53,833 nucleotides of DNA from Candidatus Methanoperedens sp. (GTDB lineage Archaea; Halobacteriota; Methanosarcinia; Methanosarcinales; Methanoperedenaceae): positions 1 through 53,833 of the forward strand of contig JAPMTS010000009.1 of NCBI GenBank assembly GCA_026552955.1. The letters run 5' to 3'. Below the pieces are notes generated by a model. It worked only from the letters and a program-made list of their open reading frames with translations, was not told the DNA's origin and did not search any database. Shown here in pieces: positions 691 through 19,900 of the stretch (the stretch's first letter is position 1; the number at the start of each line of letters is the position of its first letter). The position numbers and the translations under genes are program-made.

Positions 691-757
691 ATGTTTATAG
701 TTTTGTGTTTATAAGGACAAGTTTTAATATATTAGCTGATATTATCTCATTCTGTTT

Positions 758-1339
758 ATGGGTCTAAAAAACATAGTAAAATTTTATAAAGAAAGCGATA
801 GTTTCTGGGCGGGACTTTTGCGGGATTTTCTTTTTGTACTGGTCGTAGTAATTATTTTTGCCTCGTTTTCAAAGATCGCATTGGGATTGTATACACCAAT
901 GGTAGCTGTGGAAAGTGGAAGTATGATCCCTCACATTCAGATAGGTGATATCATATTTATTGAAAGTGCCCAGCGAGCCGAAATAATCACACAGGAAGCA
1001 GGAAAAAAAATGGATTATTCATCTTTTAGCGAATATGGCGATGTCATATTATTCAAACCGCAAGGAAAAGAAGGAGCTACACCAATTATTCATCGCGCCA
1101 TGCATTATGTCGAAAAAGGAAATCCCATGTGGACAAATGGACCTCCTGCTCCGTATGCAGGCTACATTACGAAAGGTGATAACAGTAAAACTAATGCTGC
1201 ATATGACCAGCAGGGAAGTATAAGTTACCTGCAGCCTGTCAAGAAAGAATGGGTGATCGGAAAAGCAATATTTACCAGGATACCGGTTCTTGGATGTATT
1301 TCCCTTATTCCACGAGGAAATCTTGCATGCTTCAAGTGA
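758..1339 (+). CDS. Signal peptidase I, archaeal S26B type (copy 2)
   Basis: Paralogue of the preceding gene with the same architecture: one N-terminal transmembrane segment, canonical ESGSMIPH serine box (Ser55), IIHRAM histidine box and KGDNS aspartate box, 193 residues. The last third (GSISYLQPVKKEWVIG) is identical to copy 1 also at DNA level, suggesting recent duplication or gene conversion, while the N-terminal half has diverged. It has its own short upstream region with an AT-rich stretch. The pair ends convergently against the orc1 gene on the opposite strand, 16 bp away. Confidence 0.92.
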   Translation: MGLKNIVKFYKESDSFWAGLLRDFLFVLVVVIIFASFSKIALGLYTPMVAVESGSMIPHIQIGDIIFIESAQRAEIITQEAGKKMDYSSFSEYGDVILFKPQGKEGATPIIHRAMHYVEKGNPMWTNGPPAPYAGYITKGDNSKTNAAYDQQGSISYLQPVKKEWVIGKAIFTRIPVLGCISLIPRGNLACFK

Positions 1340-1355
1340 ACTGCGAAATAAAATT

Positions 1356-2597
1356 TCAGGCGTATAATTTTGTCTGGTTCGGCGGCCTGAAATCTTCCAG
1401 CGGTTTTAACCTGTAATCCTCAAATAGAACTCTTTTTGTGCTTTCGGAAGGGACGCTCAAAGAGATTTCCTTTGTTCTTCCATATCTTCCTTTACTAACA
1501 ACAGTTGCATTCAGGATTCCCATCATATCAAGCTCGGAAATGAGATCTGTAACCCTTCGCTGTGTCAGGATCTCAATTCCTATCAGTCTGCACATCTGTT
1601 TATAAATATTATAAGCTTCACCTGTCGTGAGATTACTTTCACCATTATATCCAAGAAGAACAACACTCAATAATACAAGTTTAGATTGGCTTGGTAATGT
1701 CCTTACTACTTCCACTATCCTGTCAATCTCGATCTTCTCCTGAGCTTGCTTAACGTGTGCCTCAAGGACTTTACTCGATTTTATTCGTTCTGCAATTTCT
1801 CCGGAAACGCGTAAAAGATCCAGTGCCCGCCTTGCATCACCATGTTCCTGTGCTGCGTAAGCCGCACAAAGAGGGATTACCGTCTCTTCCAGTACTTCGG
1901 GTTTGAAAGCCATCTGTGCTCTCTGGTTAAGAATATCCCTTATCTGGTTGGCATCGTACGGAGGGAAAATTATCTCTTCTTCCCCGAGTGAACTTTTTAC
2001 TCTCGGATCCAGGAATTCTGTAAATTTCAGATCATTTGTTACTCCAATAAGACTGACTTTAGCTTTCTTCAGGTCAGAATTTATTCTGGTAAGATTGTAA
2101 AGCACATCATCTCCTTTGCATACAAGTTTATCCACTTCGTCCAGTATTATTATCGCTATGCGTTTATCCGAGTCAAGAGCACTCTTCAGTTCTGTATAAA
2201 CCTGGTCAGTTGGCCAGCCGGTCATGGGAATGTCCTTCTCAAAATGCCGTGCGATTGATGCAAGCAAACGATATTGAGTATCCACAACTTCGCAGTTGAT
2301 ATATACCACAATGCATGGAACACTATGCATTTCACTCGTTTTTTCAAGTTCTTTCCCTACATGTTTAGCTACAGCAGTCTTTCCGGTACCGGTCTTTCCA
2401 TATATTAAGATATTAGAAGGGGTTTCGCCTCTTAATGCTGAAACTAATATCGTTGCCAATCCTTTTACCTGCTCGTCCCTGTGGGGCAGGTAATCAGGTG
2501 TATATGTCGACCTTAGTACCTCTCTATTTTCGAAAATACTTTCACGCATCAACATGTCTTCGAAAATGCCATTTATTGATGACGTTTTTGTCTCCAT
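1356..2597 (-). CDS. cdc6: Orc1/Cdc6 replication initiator
   Basis: AAA+ origin-binding ATPase of 413 residues that recognises ORB elements and loads the MCM helicase. Seen: Walker A GKTGTGKTAV, Walker B IIILDEVDK, a sensor-1 region around VSLIGVTND, a sensor-2 helix with GDARRALDLL, and a C-terminal winged-helix domain (about 310-400) that contacts DNA. The gene starts next to an AT-rich intergenic region with several ORB-like inverted repeats, the usual archaeal arrangement of initiator gene beside its origin. Full length for the family. Transcription runs away from the origin. Confidence 0.95.
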   Translation of the reverse strand: METKTSSINGIFEDMLMRESIFENREVLRSTYTPDYLPHRDEQVKGLATILVSALRGETPSNILIYGKTGTGKTAVAKHVGKELEKTSEMHSVPCIVVYINCEVVDTQYRLLASIARHFEKDIPMTGWPTDQVYTELKSALDSDKRIAIIILDEVDKLVCKGDDVLYNLTRINSDLKKAKVSLIGVTNDLKFTEFLDPRVKSSLGEEEIIFPPYDANQIRDILNQRAQMAFKPEVLEETVIPLCAAYAAQEHGDARRALDLLRVSGEIAERIKSSKVLEAHVKQAQEKIEIDRIVEVVRTLPSQSKLVLLSVVLLGYNGESNLTTGEAYNIYKQMCRLIGIEILTQRRVTDLISELDMMGILNATVVSKGRYGRTKEISLSVPSESTKRVLFEDYRLKPLEDFRPPNQTKLYA

Positions 2598-3873: not shown

Positions 3874-5390
3874 CCTGCAAGATTAACAATTGTATTTCTG
3901 GTAATCAAAAGATTTATTGAAGATTGTTCTTTGTTCTCACGGACAAGGGTGCCATATATCCCGACTATATCCCCATACATAGCATCAATGAGCACCCTGT
4001 TGTTTTCAGTCAGATGGTATGCGGGCATTACCGCATAGCAAGGAATTGAAGTTGTCCCATCGCAGATCTTGAACACAAACGTTTTTTCATCCCCAAGGTT
4101 TCCTGACATGACCGATGCGTTAACATTTATGTGTTTCTTGATATGTTTTTTCAGATTTGAAAGAGCCATAAATTTTCCCTTTACCCTATAAGCATGTTTA
4201 GCAAGCCCATCTTTTCTCATTATTACATAGGAAAATTTCATATCCGTATTTAAGTATCTGTAAGACTCCGTTGTATCTGCGATCTTTTCCATGAAACCAG
4301 GCGCCTTTATGTTCCCAGACTCCTGGAAACTCCAGCAATTGACGCCACTGCAGACTTTTCCCCAGATAAATGAGCATGGACTATAGACATTGAATCCTTT
4401 GTTGATAAGTGCATGCTGGGTTATCCTGAGGGCCTTTGAGTTATCAAGGTCAGCCGGCTCGATGATCAGGAGTGTTGGATTCTTGCTTAATGAAGCAATT
4501 CTTTCCACGACAACAGCGCGTTCATGCGGTGGCGCCTTTAACTCAGCCAGGACATTTGAGAAAATTATAAGATCGGCATTCTTTGGAACAGATGCAGTTT
4601 CTAAAAATGAATGGACAGGTTCATCAATGGTGATATTTGAAATGTCCCCCGTATGGAAATTGGAAGTAAGTTCTTTATAGCATTCTATATTTTGGGATTC
4701 ATGCTCGATCGAACCCATCCTGATATTCATCTTAACATCCATCTTATTCCTGGAATAGATATCCTTCAGTTTCCTGAAGAAATCAAGTGTTCCAAGTGTT
4801 ATCGTCCCGGGACCCGAACCAACATCTATGATGCTCATTTTGTTCATCAGCAATCCAGCCCTGAATAATCCAAGCAGGAGGTACTGGTACTGGCAGAAAT
4901 ACACGGGGAAATGGTAGAGGAGGTAGGATATTATCCTGATCTTAGGATACTTTGTCCCTCCTTTTCCTGTCCAGTATTCCTCTTTCTGCTTAACGATATT
5001 TTCGTGTATCAGTGCTGCTGTTTCGCCTTTGTGCCAGTTCTTCCCGCAGGATTTTTCTATGTAGGTTTCGATCAATTTTTCAATGTGAAGAGGCAATCCC
5101 GGATTCTTAAACTGCGCCTCAAGTTCCCTGACTACAGCTTCATCAGCAGGCAGAGGACTCTTTATAAGTTTAGTGCATGTATAGCCGGCGCCGCAAAAGA
5201 GGTCAAGGTCAAAAAAATGCGGTTTCAGGATAGTGTAGAGCTCTTTTTCATCATATTTCCTGCTCAGGTACTGGTTCATCTCAGGGAGTGAGAACTCAGG
5301 GCGCGAGGAGGCGAGGTATTTGGCGAGGGAGAGGATTTCGGAGTTGAACCCTCTCCCACGGCTAAATCCGGGAGATTCCTCTACGCTCAT
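3870..5390 (-). CDS. Rsm22-like SAM-dependent methyltransferase with transposon-derived N-terminus
   Basis: 506 residues resembling the Rsm22/METTL17 family, which assists small ribosomal subunit maturation. A Rossmann methyltransferase core begins near residue 190 with the SAM motif IIDVGSGPGTITLG; Cys residues in PCSFIWGKVC and GVNCW recall the Fe-S/zinc cysteines of the family; the last ~100 residues look like an OB-fold. The start ATG overlaps the tnpB stop (ATGA). Codons 1-16 (MSVEESPGFSRGRGFN) are encoded by the IS605 right-end hairpin and its terminal GGTTCAA; native protein seems to start after that, at SEILSLAKYL. The insertion therefore replaced the original start and N-terminus. 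Whether the product is active is unknown. Confidence 0.8.
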   Translation of the reverse strand: MSVEESPGFSRGRGFNSEILSLAKYLASSRPEFSLPEMNQYLSRKYDEKELYTILKPHFFDLDLFCGAGYTCTKLIKSPLPADEAVVRELEAQFKNPGLPLHIEKLIETYIEKSCGKNWHKGETAALIHENIVKQKEEYWTGKGGTKYPKIRIISYLLYHFPVYFCQYQYLLLGLFRAGLLMNKMSIIDVGSGPGTITLGTLDFFRKLKDIYSRNKMDVKMNIRMGSIEHESQNIECYKELTSNFHTGDISNITIDEPVHSFLETASVPKNADLIIFSNVLAELKAPPHERAVVVERIASLSKNPTLLIIEPADLDNSKALRITQHALINKGFNVYSPCSFIWGKVCSGVNCWSFQESGNIKAPGFMEKIADTTESYRYLNTDMKFSYVIMRKDGLAKHAYRVKGKFMALSNLKKHIKKHINVNASVMSGNLGDEKTFVFKICDGTTSIPCYAVMPAYHLTENNRVLIDAMYGDIVGIYGTLVRENKEQSSINLLITRNTIVNLAG

Positions 5391-6898
5391 ATAAGCTCTC
5401 TATGGCTCTCATCCGGGAGGATTACAGCATCCATAGCCTCACTTATAATTCGTACAGGATTAACGAGCGAACCGCTCTGGCTCTCAATTCCCTTGAATCC
5501 AAAGCTGGCAGGAGAAACCTTGCCTATCGCAGTTTGTTTCGCCCTTGAAATCGCTTCGCTAAGGATAGATTCCATACCTTGCCAGAGGTCTTTCGCTCCG
5601 GGAAAATCAAGGGCGCTTGTTTCTTTATCCACACATTTTGCCAGAAATGCAGAATACAAGTCCCTCTGCATCCTGATACTATAACAGATATGCCATCGCT
5701 TGCTGAGGGTTTTCTTAACAGCCTGTTCGCAGATATGGCATGTTTGGGATAGTTTCGTTGTCTGTGTAGGAAATTCAAATAAGTAGCCACCAGCATTTTC
5801 AGCTTTTATTTTGAGGCTATTCATGAACATGAAAGGGGCACGCATATTAATTGACCTGCCGTATCGCTTTTGCCAGCCTTTATAAGATACGTTTTCAGTC
5901 TGGATTCGTGTGCCCATTGCTATTATTTCGTTTATGTCTTTTCCGTGAAGGGATTTTCGATGTGCAGCTAAGATTCTATCGGTTTCGGCTAAGTCTTGGC
6001 TTACTGTTTTATACCGATTTGATGTTTTAAACTTCTTCCCCTTCTTAACTGTTCCGTTTTTATTATAATTATCAGGATTGGTTGCCCTTAGTGATCTATC
6101 AAGTTTTCGTTGTAGCTTTCGTTTCTTTTTCTGATCAGGCATTAACTCACTGCAAAACTGTTTCAACATAGCTTTTGTATCTGCAACCATTGCTATTGTA
6201 CCTGTCCCTACATCAAGCCCGATCTCTTCTGCCCCGATCTTGTTTTTCGGGTTCTGGAATGGTGTTCCTTCAAGAATTAATTGAAGATAGAATCTGTTCT
6301 TGCCATTGATCTTTCTTCGGACTATTCTGCAATACTTGAGTTTATGATTTAAGCCATATGTGATTAAATCGTTATCCGGGTCGATGATGCATGGTATTTC
6401 AAGACCAGACCAATAGAGGGCATTGTTCTTGAATATTAATCCGGTTTCGTTGTTTTTTCCTTCCAGAGAATCCATCTGGTTTTTTCCTTTGAATCTTACA
6501 TTCTTTGCCATTCCAAATGCTTTTTTCTGGACGGCTTTGAAGGCTCTTGTTGCTAATTTCTGAGCGATATGAGCGTGAATGTGTTCTTCCATCCAGCTAT
6601 TCCTTATTCCAGTTGCATAATGTTGAATATCGTAATCGGTGAACCCTTCTTTCTTATTGAGTTCATTGAACGCTTTTGTTCGTTCTGGATTCTGTTTACC
6701 GTTAATGGTTTTCGGGAGTTTCTGGATTTCCTGATACTCTTTTGATTGCTGGATAAGTCCAAGTCGCTCCAAGGCTTCCCCTAAACTTGCATGATACAAC
6801 TGCCTTCCTGTATCCAGACGTATAAGTATAGTAGCTTCGTCAGACGATGTGGTTTTTAAAGGCAGTTCTGTTATGAACGATGGAGTTTTTGATTTCAT
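5387..6898 (-). CDS. tnpB: TnpB, RNA-guided nuclease of IS200/IS605 element
   Basis: 503-residue TnpB (OrfB). RuvC-like catalytic acids are visible: Asp229 in IGLDVGTG, Glu335 in IQTENVSYK, and Asp413 in QRDLYSAF. The zinc-finger insert has Cys387, Cys390 (CHIC) and Cys405 but the expected fourth cysteine of the C-x-C or CxxC partner is Ser or Ile in HICYSIRM. All three nuclease residues being intact suggests the protein may still cut DNA, though the missing zinc ligand could weaken it. It overlaps tnpA (ATGA) upstream and the Rsm22-like gene (ATGA) downstream, so it is placed to be translated together with the host gene. Confidence 0.93.
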   Translation of the reverse strand: MKSKTPSFITELPLKTTSSDEATILIRLDTGRQLYHASLGEALERLGLIQQSKEYQEIQKLPKTINGKQNPERTKAFNELNKKEGFTDYDIQHYATGIRNSWMEEHIHAHIAQKLATRAFKAVQKKAFGMAKNVRFKGKNQMDSLEGKNNETGLIFKNNALYWSGLEIPCIIDPDNDLITYGLNHKLKYCRIVRRKINGKNRFYLQLILEGTPFQNPKNKIGAEEIGLDVGTGTIAMVADTKAMLKQFCSELMPDQKKKRKLQRKLDRSLRATNPDNYNKNGTVKKGKKFKTSNRYKTVSQDLAETDRILAAHRKSLHGKDINEIIAMGTRIQTENVSYKGWQKRYGRSINMRAPFMFMNSLKIKAENAGGYLFEFPTQTTKLSQTCHICEQAVKKTLSKRWHICYSIRMQRDLYSAFLAKCVDKETSALDFPGAKDLWQGMESILSEAISRAKQTAIGKVSPASFGFKGIESQSGSLVNPVRIISEAMDAVILPDESHRELI

Positions 6899-17384: not shown

Positions 17385-18638
17385 ATGATGCAGGCAGAAA
17401 TATACGACAGAGTTGGCGTGGAAACAAAAGGCGTTAAGTATGAGGGAACATTAATGCCTTCACAGACGGACAGGATAGTCTTAAAATTAAAAAATGGTTA
17501 TAATATCGGGATAGAAAAGGAATCAGCGCATATAACCCTGCTTGATAAGAAAGAAGAAACCTCCACCCATACCGGGCCGGTCAGCACTGGAAAAAAGAAA
17601 AATGAAAAGCTTCCCAACATTTCAATACTTTCAACCGGCGGCACAATTGCAAGCAAGATAGATTATCGCACAGGAGCTGTGAATTCGCAATTCTCGGCAG
17701 ATGATGTTCTTCGCGCGATCCCCGAACTTGAAGAAATAGCAAATTACAAATGCCGGATGATCTACAGCATTCTGAGTGAAAATATGCGCCCATCATACTG
17801 GATAGAGCTGGCACAGGCAGTATATGAGGAAATAAAAAATGGCGCTGATGGCATCATAATTACTCACGGCACAGATACAATGATGTATACTGCTGCAGCA
17901 CTTTCTTTTATGATCGAGACGCCAGTCCCCATCGTGCTTGTGGGTTCCCAGCGAAGCGCGGACAGGCCAAGCAGTGATAATGCCATGAACGCGATATGCG
18001 CAGCTAAAGTTGCCGCCAGTGATATAGCTGAAGTCTGTGTTGTGATGCATGGCTCAACAAGTGATGATTTTTGTTCTATCCACAGGGGAACAAAAGTTAG
18101 GAAGATGCATACATCGCAGCGCGATGCTTTCCAGTCGATAAACGCAAGGCCAATAGGGTATGTTGAATATCCGTCCGGAGCTATCAAAATAGGAGCCTCA
18201 TATGTAAAAAGGGGGGAAAGAAAACTCGCGATTCATGAAAAGCTTGAATCCAAATGCGCCCTGATAAAATATGTCACAGGTGCAAGTAGTGAATCTCTTC
18301 TCTTCCATTCGGTTTCTGGATATAAGGGTATTGTGATAGAAGGTACAGGTCTGGGTCATGTTTCTACCGAGTGGGTCCCTCTTATAAGAACAGTCACAAA
18401 TGCAGGTATCCCGGTGGTTGTGACTTCACAATGCATAAACGGGAGGGTATGCGATCGTGTTTATGATACCGGCAGGGATATGTTAAAAGCAGGTACGATC
18501 GAAAGTGAAGATATGCTGTCTGAGGTAGCTCTCGTAAAATTAATGTGGGTGTTGGGGCAGACCCAAAACATTGAAGATGCAAAAGTCATGATGCATACTA
18601 ATATCGCTGGCGAGCTCACTCGCAGTACTCGTTCATGA
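17385..18638 (+). CDS. gatD: Glutamyl-tRNA(Gln) amidotransferase subunit D
   Basis: 417-residue asparaginase-like subunit of the archaeal GatDE complex, which releases ammonia from an amide donor for conversion of Glu-tRNA(Gln) to Gln-tRNA(Gln). N-terminal barrel domain (residues 1-80), then the type I asparaginase fold with [19 protein letters not shown] (catalytic Thr) and [17 protein letters not shown] (Thr-Asp pair). AAGGGA lies upstream; the ATG doublet at 17385/17388 leaves a one-codon ambiguity. gatE, often next to gatD, is not here: the following 800 bp hold the hairpin array and then moaC on the other strand. Confidence 0.95.
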
Positions 18639-18713
18639 TGAGTATGATTATAATTATTTTAATTATAGAATATATAGGTAAATATTAAATAGTATAAGAA
18701 CATTATACAGTTT

Positions 18714-18786
18714 GCTGTAGGACCGGGCGCCTAATGCCTTTAGTACCCTCAGTCTCCTTCGACCCATCGTTTTTATTAGGCGCCTG
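18714..18786 (+). ncRNA. Predicted small RNA, hairpin unit 1
   Basis: Stem arms GGCGCCTAAT (18726-18735) and ATTAGGCGCC (18775-18784) are perfect; outer G-U and C-G pairs extend the stem to 12 bp. The 39-nt loop, GCCTTTAGTACCCTCAGTCT onward, is conserved in all copies. A TATA-like ATTAAATAG lies 21 bp upstream, placing a start site near 18714 by usual archaeal spacing. The upstream spacer here differs from those of the other copies while the box distance is kept. No Shine-Dalgarno or convincing reading frame. Confidence 0.55.
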
Positions 18787-18927
18787 TAACTACACCATTT
18801 TTCCAAAAACAAATTTATTATGGATTTGTAATTATTCACTTCAGAACATTTATGATGATGAGCATAATTATTCACATGAAAGAATATATCAGTTAATATT
18901 AAATACTTTCAAATCATCATTAATATG

Positions 18928-19000
18928 GCTGTAGGATCGGGCGCCTAATGCCTTTAGTACCCTCAGTCTCCTTCGACCCATCGTTTTTATTAGGCGCCTG
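18928..19000 (+). ncRNA. Predicted small RNA, hairpin unit 2
   Basis: Same core as unit 1 with arms at 18940-18949 and 18989-18998 and an identical loop. One substitution just outside the stem (GGATCGGG versus GGACCGGG) and one in the 3' flank (TGTATCTACACC). The TATA-like ATTAAATAC is 21 bp upstream. Transcription is predicted, not shown. Confidence 0.55.
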
Positions 19001-19141
19001 TATCTACACCTTTTCCAAAAACAAATTTATTATGGATTTGCTTATTGATTCACTTCAGAACAATCATCATAATGAGCATAATTATTCACATGAAAGAATA
19101 TATCAGTTAATATTAAATACTTTCAAATCATCATTAATATT

Positions 19142-19214
19142 GCTGTAGGATCGGGCGCCTAATGCCTTTAGTACCCTCAGTCTCCTTCGACCCATCGTTT
19201 TTATTAGGCGCCTG
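19142..19214 (+). ncRNA. Predicted small RNA, hairpin unit 3
   Basis: Arms at 19154-19163 and 19203-19212, loop identical to units 1 and 2, TATA-like ATTAAATAC 21 bp upstream. The 3' spacer differs from unit 1 at a few positions (for example TACGCTTTTTTC in place of TACACCATTTTT). Confidence 0.55.
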
Positions 19215-19353
19215 TAACTACGCTTTTTTCAAAAACAAATTTATTATGGATTTGTAATTATTCACTTCAGAACAATCATCATAATGAGTATAATTATTCA
19301 CATGAAAGAATATATCAGTTAATATTAAATACTTTCAAATCATCATCAATATT

Positions 19354-19427
19354 GCTGTAGGATCAGGCGCCTAATGCCTTTAGTACCCCTCAGTCTCCTT
19401 CGACCCATCGTTTTTATTAGGCGCCTG
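19354..19427 (+). ncRNA. Predicted small RNA, hairpin unit 4 (last, without spacer)
   Basis: Arms at 19366-19375 and 19416-19425. The loop has one extra C (TACCCCTCAG), and the base at the outer pair is A instead of G, turning the G-U pair of the other copies into A-U. That substitution keeps pairing and favours an RNA-level structure. The copy ends at CTGCACAGC and abuts the moaC stop codon at 19436, so it may also form the 3' region of the converging moaC transcript. Confidence 0.55.
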
Positions 19428-19435
19428 CACAGCAT

Positions 19436-19900
19436 CTATTCATCTTTCATCTTTTCAATTACAAAGATATTTTTGATCATTGTAGACGGATAGTTCCCAG
19501 TTTTGTCCTTTTCAACTGATTTTACCATGTCCCATATTACCAGGAGAGCTACGCTTACCCCATGAAGAGCTTCCATTTCAACACCGGTTTTTCCAACGGA
19601 TTTTACTTCAACAATCACTTTCACATTTTCCACGCCGAGTTCGAATTGGACATCAATACCTGTTAATGATATCTGATGACACATCGGAATCACGCAAGAA
19701 GTGTTCTTTATGGCCAGTACAGAAGCTATTCGCGCCGTTTCAAGCACCGATCCCTTTTCAATTTCCTTATTCCTGATAGCATCAATTGTCTGGGGCTTTA
19801 GCTGTATCTCACCGGTGGCTTTTGCGCGTCTTACTACATCATTTTTTCCACTTATATCCACCATCTTAGCCCTTCCGTCCTCGATATGTGAAAATTTCAT
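19436..19900 (-). CDS. moaC: Cyclic pyranopterin monophosphate synthase MoaC
   Basis: 154 residues; second step of molybdenum/tungsten cofactor synthesis, converting the MoaA product into cPMP. Conserved blocks: MVDISGKNDVVRRA, VIPMCHQISLTGID, and TGVEMEALHGVSVALL with the catalytic region, then a Lys-rich end. Length is normal. It overlaps the nnr gene stop upstream by four bases (ATGA-type coupling). Mo/W cofactor fits formylmethanofuran dehydrogenase and other oxidoreductases of such archaea. Confidence 0.95.
   Translation of the reverse strand: MKFSHIEDGRAKMVDISGKNDVVRRAKATGEIQLKPQTIDAIRNKEIEKGSVLETARIASVLAIKNTSCVIPMCHQISLTGIDVQFELGVENVKVIVEVKSVGKTGVEMEALHGVSVALLVIWDMVKSVEKDKTGNYPSTMIKNIFVIEKMKDE

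Follow-up and report, generated by a model that had tools for sequence, protein, structure and literature searches.

Methanoperedens archaea are hosts of Borgs, and their oxidation of methane is nitrate- and metal-dependent. What, in a genome of this genus, is the nature of four hairpins that stand one after another between gatD and moaC? A preliminary description of the 53,833-nt stretch analyzed here (the window) took them to be independently transcribed structured RNAs. The gatD-moaC interval holds four hairpin units of about 90 nt, 212-214 bp apart; a separate repeat search of the window found four units of 212 nt with spacings of 214, 214 and 212. The cores start where that description placed them (Table 1). 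From 5' to 3', each unit consists of an AT-rich box, a TATA box (TATTAAATA) and a core that starts with GCTGTAG and forms a long stem with a large loop. The ATTAAATA-G/C element reported 21 bp upstream of every core is present in all copies, and in every window copy the TATA box begins 31 bp 5' of the core start. Copies 1-3 have the described GGCGCCTAAT/ATTAGGCGCC arms around a 39-nt loop, but the loop of copy 4 has 40 nt, with one extra C. The change of a stem G-U pair to A-U in copy 4 is real. The statement that no T-run follows the hairpins, however, does not hold for copies 1-3, where 4-6 Ts stand a few bases past the outer stem; copy 4 has scattered Ts only, followed by the 3' end of moaC. 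That outer stem (GTAG/CTAC) and the AT-rich box had both been overlooked. In copy 4 the outer stem is re-formed as GCTGT/ACAGC, since the end of moaC takes the place of the usual 3' flank. Elsewhere in the window, an open reading frame at 5387-6898 (minus strand) resembles, by reading only, an IS605-type TnpB transposase-associated protein.

Table 1. Positions of the hairpin RNA copies, their promoter elements and the flanking genes in the window
Feature	Position	Strand	Remarks
gatD	17385..18638	+	Left neighbor of the RNA locus, conserved; Pfam GatD_N and asparaginase domains
Copy 1 upstream AT box (ATGAGTATGATTATAATTATT)	18638..18658	+	24 bp 5' of TATA box
Copy 1 TATA box (TATTAAATA)	18683..18691	+	31 bp 5' of core start
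RNA copy 1	18714..18802	+	Outer and inner stem
Copy 1 inner stem	18725-18735/18775-18785		
Copy 1 loop	18736-18774		39 nt
Copy 1 T-run	18798-18802		TTTTT
Copy 2 upstream AT box	18852..18872	+	
Copy 2 TATA box	18897..18905	+	
RNA copy 2	18928..19014	+	
Copy 2 loop	18950-18988		
Copy 2 T-run	19011-19014		TTTT
Copy 3 upstream AT box	19066..19086	+	
Copy 3 TATA box	19111..19119	+	
RNA copy 3	19142..19229	+	
Copy 3 loop	19164-19202		
Copy 3 T-run	19224-19229		TTTTTT
Copy 4 upstream AT box	19278..19298	+	
Copy 4 TATA box	19323..19331	+	
RNA copy 4	19354..19433	+	Last of the array; without clear T-run
Copy 4 loop	19376-19415		40 nt
moaC	19436..19900	-	Right neighbor of the RNA array, conserved; convergent with the array

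A DNA search of 60 relatives found homologues of the hairpin in 30, all of them Methanoperedenaceae (28 of the same genus and two of a second genus). The family is represented by 34 genomes, and the four without a homologue are 63-74% complete. A covariance model made from 35 copies was run on 238 genomes of the class and matched exactly these 30, with no relative in other families of the order, and in a 393-genome sample of the phylum it matched family members only. When 84,980 species were scanned for the exact 24-nt loop core, 31 stretches were returned, whose titles name Methanoperedens, Methanoperedenaceae or otherwise unnamed archaea; several belong, as contigs, to the same family genomes. 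The described genomes of M. nitroreducens ANME-2d and BLZ2 carry the gene; no homologue was found in plasmid and phage records, and a near-match in one genome (G007:C27) was rejected as a copy, being without a hairpin. The preliminary description had allowed for the core being a palindromic MITE, dispersed among random flanking sequences. Instead, the main copies lie between gatD and moaC in every genome with readable flanks. Most genomes have a single copy and none has more than a handful. Clusters of two to four copies characterize one group of the genus (G000, which is the window's genome, G002, G003 and G017-G021); two copies also occur in one genome of the second genus.

The hairpins have the properties of a structured RNA gene. 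The folding energy of the plus strand was below that of all 200 dinucleotide shuffles for each of the four copies (z -3.8 to -4.3), while the reverse strand gave a less clear result in the two copies tested (z -2.4 and -3.1), in agreement with the orientation of the promoters. The preliminary description had proposed a covariance comparison among homologues, and in 32 distinct sequences 11 of the 18 pairs of the main stem showed compensatory changes on both sides. Overall, 93.9% of stem cells are paired, as against 24-41% for slid partners. The stem covariation score was 0.280 versus 0.172 +/- 0.010 for shuffles (0 of 500 as high), in a test whose structure was fixed from one single-copy genome, itself among the sequences, and whose shuffles ignore relatedness. 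Covariation of the stem is what is expected of a structured noncoding RNA gene. The 39-nt loop (CGCCUUUAGUACCCUCAGUCUCCUUCGACCCAUCGUUUU) is nearly invariant, with few columns varying at all in the family alignment. Within it a small GUC/GAC hairpin presents UCCUUC, and the predicted folds leave UCUCCUUC unpaired, and likewise most of ACCCUCA and of CCCAUC. As previously noted, no reading frame is preserved, the start codon and stops not being conserved on either strand. A small protein was rejected for the sense frame, where the start varies (ATG, ACG, TCG, AAG, ATA) and the downstream stops differ, and for the antisense frame, where the ATG is lost in some copies. Searches of the window against Rfam 15 returned only tRNAs at the gathering threshold and no family for the array; at relaxed thresholds, the best array matches were far below the family cut-offs. 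Compensatory stem changes, constant promoter geometry and the lack of an Rfam family all favor the original proposal of structured RNAs without a known family. Comparison of the homologues shows constraint at four levels: the pairing of the stem, the sequence of the loop, the geometry of the promoter and the position of the gene.

The promoter region is equally regular. The TATA-to-loop distance is 55-57 nt in nearly all chromosomal main-type copies, and T4-T6 occurs soon 3' of the stem in most copies, though the run is weaker where a copy is the last of an array and in a number of single copies; a promoter of its own at a near-constant distance and a terminator are both features of a noncoding RNA gene. 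Of 40 main-type copies, nearly all have a 21-bp AT box (consensus ATGATgATgATcATAATTATT, also written ATGATGATGATCATAATTATT) 24 bp 5' of the TATA box and three have it at 27 bp, and a palindrome-constrained motif search of this box gave aATaATgATaATcATtATt. Half of the box combined with a TATA box at the set spacing was sought in 30 genomes; the search returned mostly promoters of the RNA, with no match for the reversed pattern, and the arrangement is therefore nearly private to the hairpin RNA. The AT box by itself had 36 matches elsewhere in the window's genome versus three for the reversed pattern, a weak control in AT-rich DNA; a wider AT-box regulon in this genome is possible. These matches stand 5' of mixed, mostly non-iron genes on contigs C3, C10, C26, C28 and others (L194-L223); one lies between cheC-like and cheD-like genes and another before a PAS-sensor-like gene. 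The 21-bp interval of copy 1 had been called unrelated to that of the other copies but equal in length. Its length is indeed constant, but the interval is not random: it belongs to an inherited promoter class that stands 5' of the first copy in other array-bearing genomes too. Since these genomes have this class in common, the duplication probably predates those species. Many copies have another short palindrome, which lies across the presumed start of transcription (e.g. CATGATTAATAATG at L009 and CATTATTAATAATG at L033). This palindrome between the TATA box and the core is a possible repressor site.

Copies also occur away from the main locus. The window's genome has a fifth on contig 28, between genes for phenylalanyl-tRNA synthetase and adenylosuccinate synthetase, and further stray copies were found in G018 and G004; stray copies carry their own promoter. 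One in G004 (L096, contig C112, about 694-779, minus strand) lies directly 5' of a 136-codon open reading frame that resembles a winged-helix regulator. The hairpin there is followed at once by GGAG and ATG, without a T-run, as if it had been turned into a 5' leader of that frame. G017, G020 and G021 (L093, L092 and L091) have in common a second locus, at which the loop is divergent. This paralogue reads UCUCUUUC in the loop, with ACCC changed to AGCC, UCCUUC to UCUUUC and GACCC to GAAAC and the rest kept; the anti-SD-like stretch is lost, and the paralogue is perhaps a sibling RNA with another specificity. Finally, the IMG/VR contig IMGVR_UViG_3300037264_009246 (L090) has a copy at about 2000-2110 (minus strand) with its own TATA box, in which the loop is identical and the stem is largely different in sequence yet still paired. 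The contig, which also has MCM, RFC-like and weak integrase matches, is probably an archaeal mobile element, and from its hairpin RNA copy alone we infer that it belongs to a Methanoperedens element.

The constancy of the 39-nt loop on a stem that still pairs points to a dedicated regulatory RNA. Judging from the sequence comparisons, the hairpins are probably regulated small RNAs of a new archaeal family, present in multiple copies and acting in trans, with the loop as the recognition part and pairing at ribosome-binding sites as the likeliest mechanism. We infer independent transcription, common regulation and action in trans through the loop. Transcription of every copy, driven by an archaeal TATA promoter of that copy alone, would begin near GCTGTAG and stop about 90 nt further on, at the poly-T. 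An AT-rich, palindrome-like operator would stand at a near-fixed distance 5' of the TATA box in each promoter, and since such an operator-like box is found at every promoter, all copies are probably controlled by a single regulator. The long stem would serve as a scaffold, its pairing kept and its sequence free. The near-invariant loop with the GUC/GAC mini-hairpin would be the active part, and its C/U-rich stretches (ACCCUC, UCUCCUUC, GACCC) may pair with several mRNAs at or near their ribosome-binding sites. A higher copy number would then mean a higher RNA dose.

Clustered multicopy sibling small RNAs are known from bacteria. Our literature search found no archaeal example, and nothing relevant on small or noncoding RNAs of Methanoperedens. 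We assign the layout to this known kind and regard the RNA family itself, in archaea, as new. In Listeria monocytogenes, LhrC1-5 are encoded by lhrC1-4 at one locus and lhrC5 at another, with a promoter for each copy; the response element of lhrC5 has been mapped around -72 to -75 of the start, and the RNAs bind mRNA through unpaired CU-rich (UCCC) stretches, by which the Shine-Dalgarno sequence is blocked (PMC4132741). In the window's genome the Methanoperedens RNA likewise has four clustered copies and one elsewhere, near-identical copies with promoters of their own, a box at about -76 to -56 and a C/U-rich loop. However, its sequence is unrelated, and its fold is a single long stem around one large, invariant loop, whereas bacterial LhrC has two stem loops with a repeated UCCC motif; on this ground, and with no Rfam match, membership in the LhrC family proper was rejected. 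RNAs of the CsrB/RsmX type repeat a GGA motif, in contrast to the one long non-repetitive loop found here. Such protein-titrating RNAs are multicopy and regulated (PMC4132741). NmsRA and NmsRB of Neisseria are tandem, structurally near-identical sibling RNAs with predicted anti-SD motifs (PMC5362039), but they are bacterial, number two copies and have another structure. Methanosarcina mazei sRNA154, sRNA41 and sRNA162 are, like the Methanoperedens RNA, intergenic and archaeal, and they act in trans; sRNA154 has an anti-RBS sequence in loop 2 and sRNA41 masks RBSs, but these RNAs are not described as tandem multicopy (PMC5867862; PMC3510493).

How the loop might act is less clear than that it is conserved. 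Its exposed C/U-rich stretches fit antisense pairing at ribosome-binding sites, and the constancy of one long loop fits protein binding. A search of 30 genomes for a recurring site with long loop complementarity (three overlapping loop windows, up to 3 mismatches, rRNA included where assembled) found none besides the RNA genes and chance-level singles, by a method that is blind to short seed pairing. A small repeated near-match to the loop complement (ACGACGATGGGTCAAAGG) was seen in the window's genome only. In a comparison of start and internal regions of 69 genes, the whole loop did no better than shuffled loops (29 of 60 shuffles were as good), and UCUCCUUC alone showed a slight preference for start regions. 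The loss of the anti-SD-like stretch in the second-locus paralogue also speaks against pairing at ribosome-binding sites. We tentatively take loop-to-mRNA pairing at ribosome-binding sites as the likeliest mechanism, with less than even confidence, and place it slightly ahead of protein binding because of the precedents of LhrC, NmsR, sRNA154 and sRNA41. That the invariant loop is instead a protein-binding site, by which the RNA would sequester or scaffold an RNA-binding protein or join an RNP without pairing to mRNA, seems somewhat unlikely. It would agree with 39 nt constant across the family around a conserved mini-hairpin, GUC(UCCUUC)GAC, with the missing long target, and with the multicopy arrangement typical of titrating RNAs; however, the loop is without the repeated short motif of CsrB/RsmX and without a candidate protein, and the target searches would have passed over short seeds. 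Rather doubtful is a dedicated RNP, in which the loop would bind a Methanoperedens-specific RNA-binding protein or a ribosome-associated factor, dosed by the tandem copies, with the extrachromosomal element keeping the loop and rebuilding the stem to tap the same factor.

The remaining explanations fit the data less well. An iron-sparing RNA under a Fur/DtxR-type repressor, analogous to RyhB, PrrF or FsrA, was suggested by aATaATgATaATcATtATt, which resembles the textbook bacterial Fur box, and by the Fur-box-like AATGATAATCATTAT between the TATA box and the RNA start in the mobile copy. However, the window's genome gave no Fur family match, and the DtxR-FeoB regions of 12 relatives, a 16.6-bit site in a single genome included, offered no convincing box. 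The data therefore do not support iron control. In addition, a 25.4-bit site (L193) proved to be the hairpin RNA's own promoter, and the varied genes behind the other box matches also speak against this unlikely reading. It is quite improbable that the element acts as DNA, i.e. as a palindromic MITE- or REP-like mobile element, an attachment site or a protein-binding palindrome. Although the structure is palindromic, stray copies lie at unrelated places and the copy on the probable mobile element is about 700 bp from an integrase-like gene, the many dispersed copies with random flanks typical of MITE or REP elements were not found: copies are few and the main ones occupy one syntenic place across the family. 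Moreover, the TATA box and its spacing are conserved, stray copies have a promoter of their own, a T-run follows the hairpin, and the most conserved part is the single-stranded loop rather than the palindrome. Least credible of all is a cis role for the hairpins, whether as terminators, as leaders or as a small ORF belonging to gatD or moaC, and we would give it very little weight. Their position between these convergent genes, with copy 4 ending a few bp from the moaC stop, would suit that role, but each hairpin has its own promoter, copies exist away from both genes, and the variable starts and stops described above do not suit a small ORF.

For Methanoperedens, the hairpin RNA family offers a concrete entry point, namely a short RNA with predicted ends. 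Its fixed loop may be used as bait, and the promoter box may serve as a handle on the regulator. To judge by the copy found on a probable mobile element, this loop seems worth stealing.
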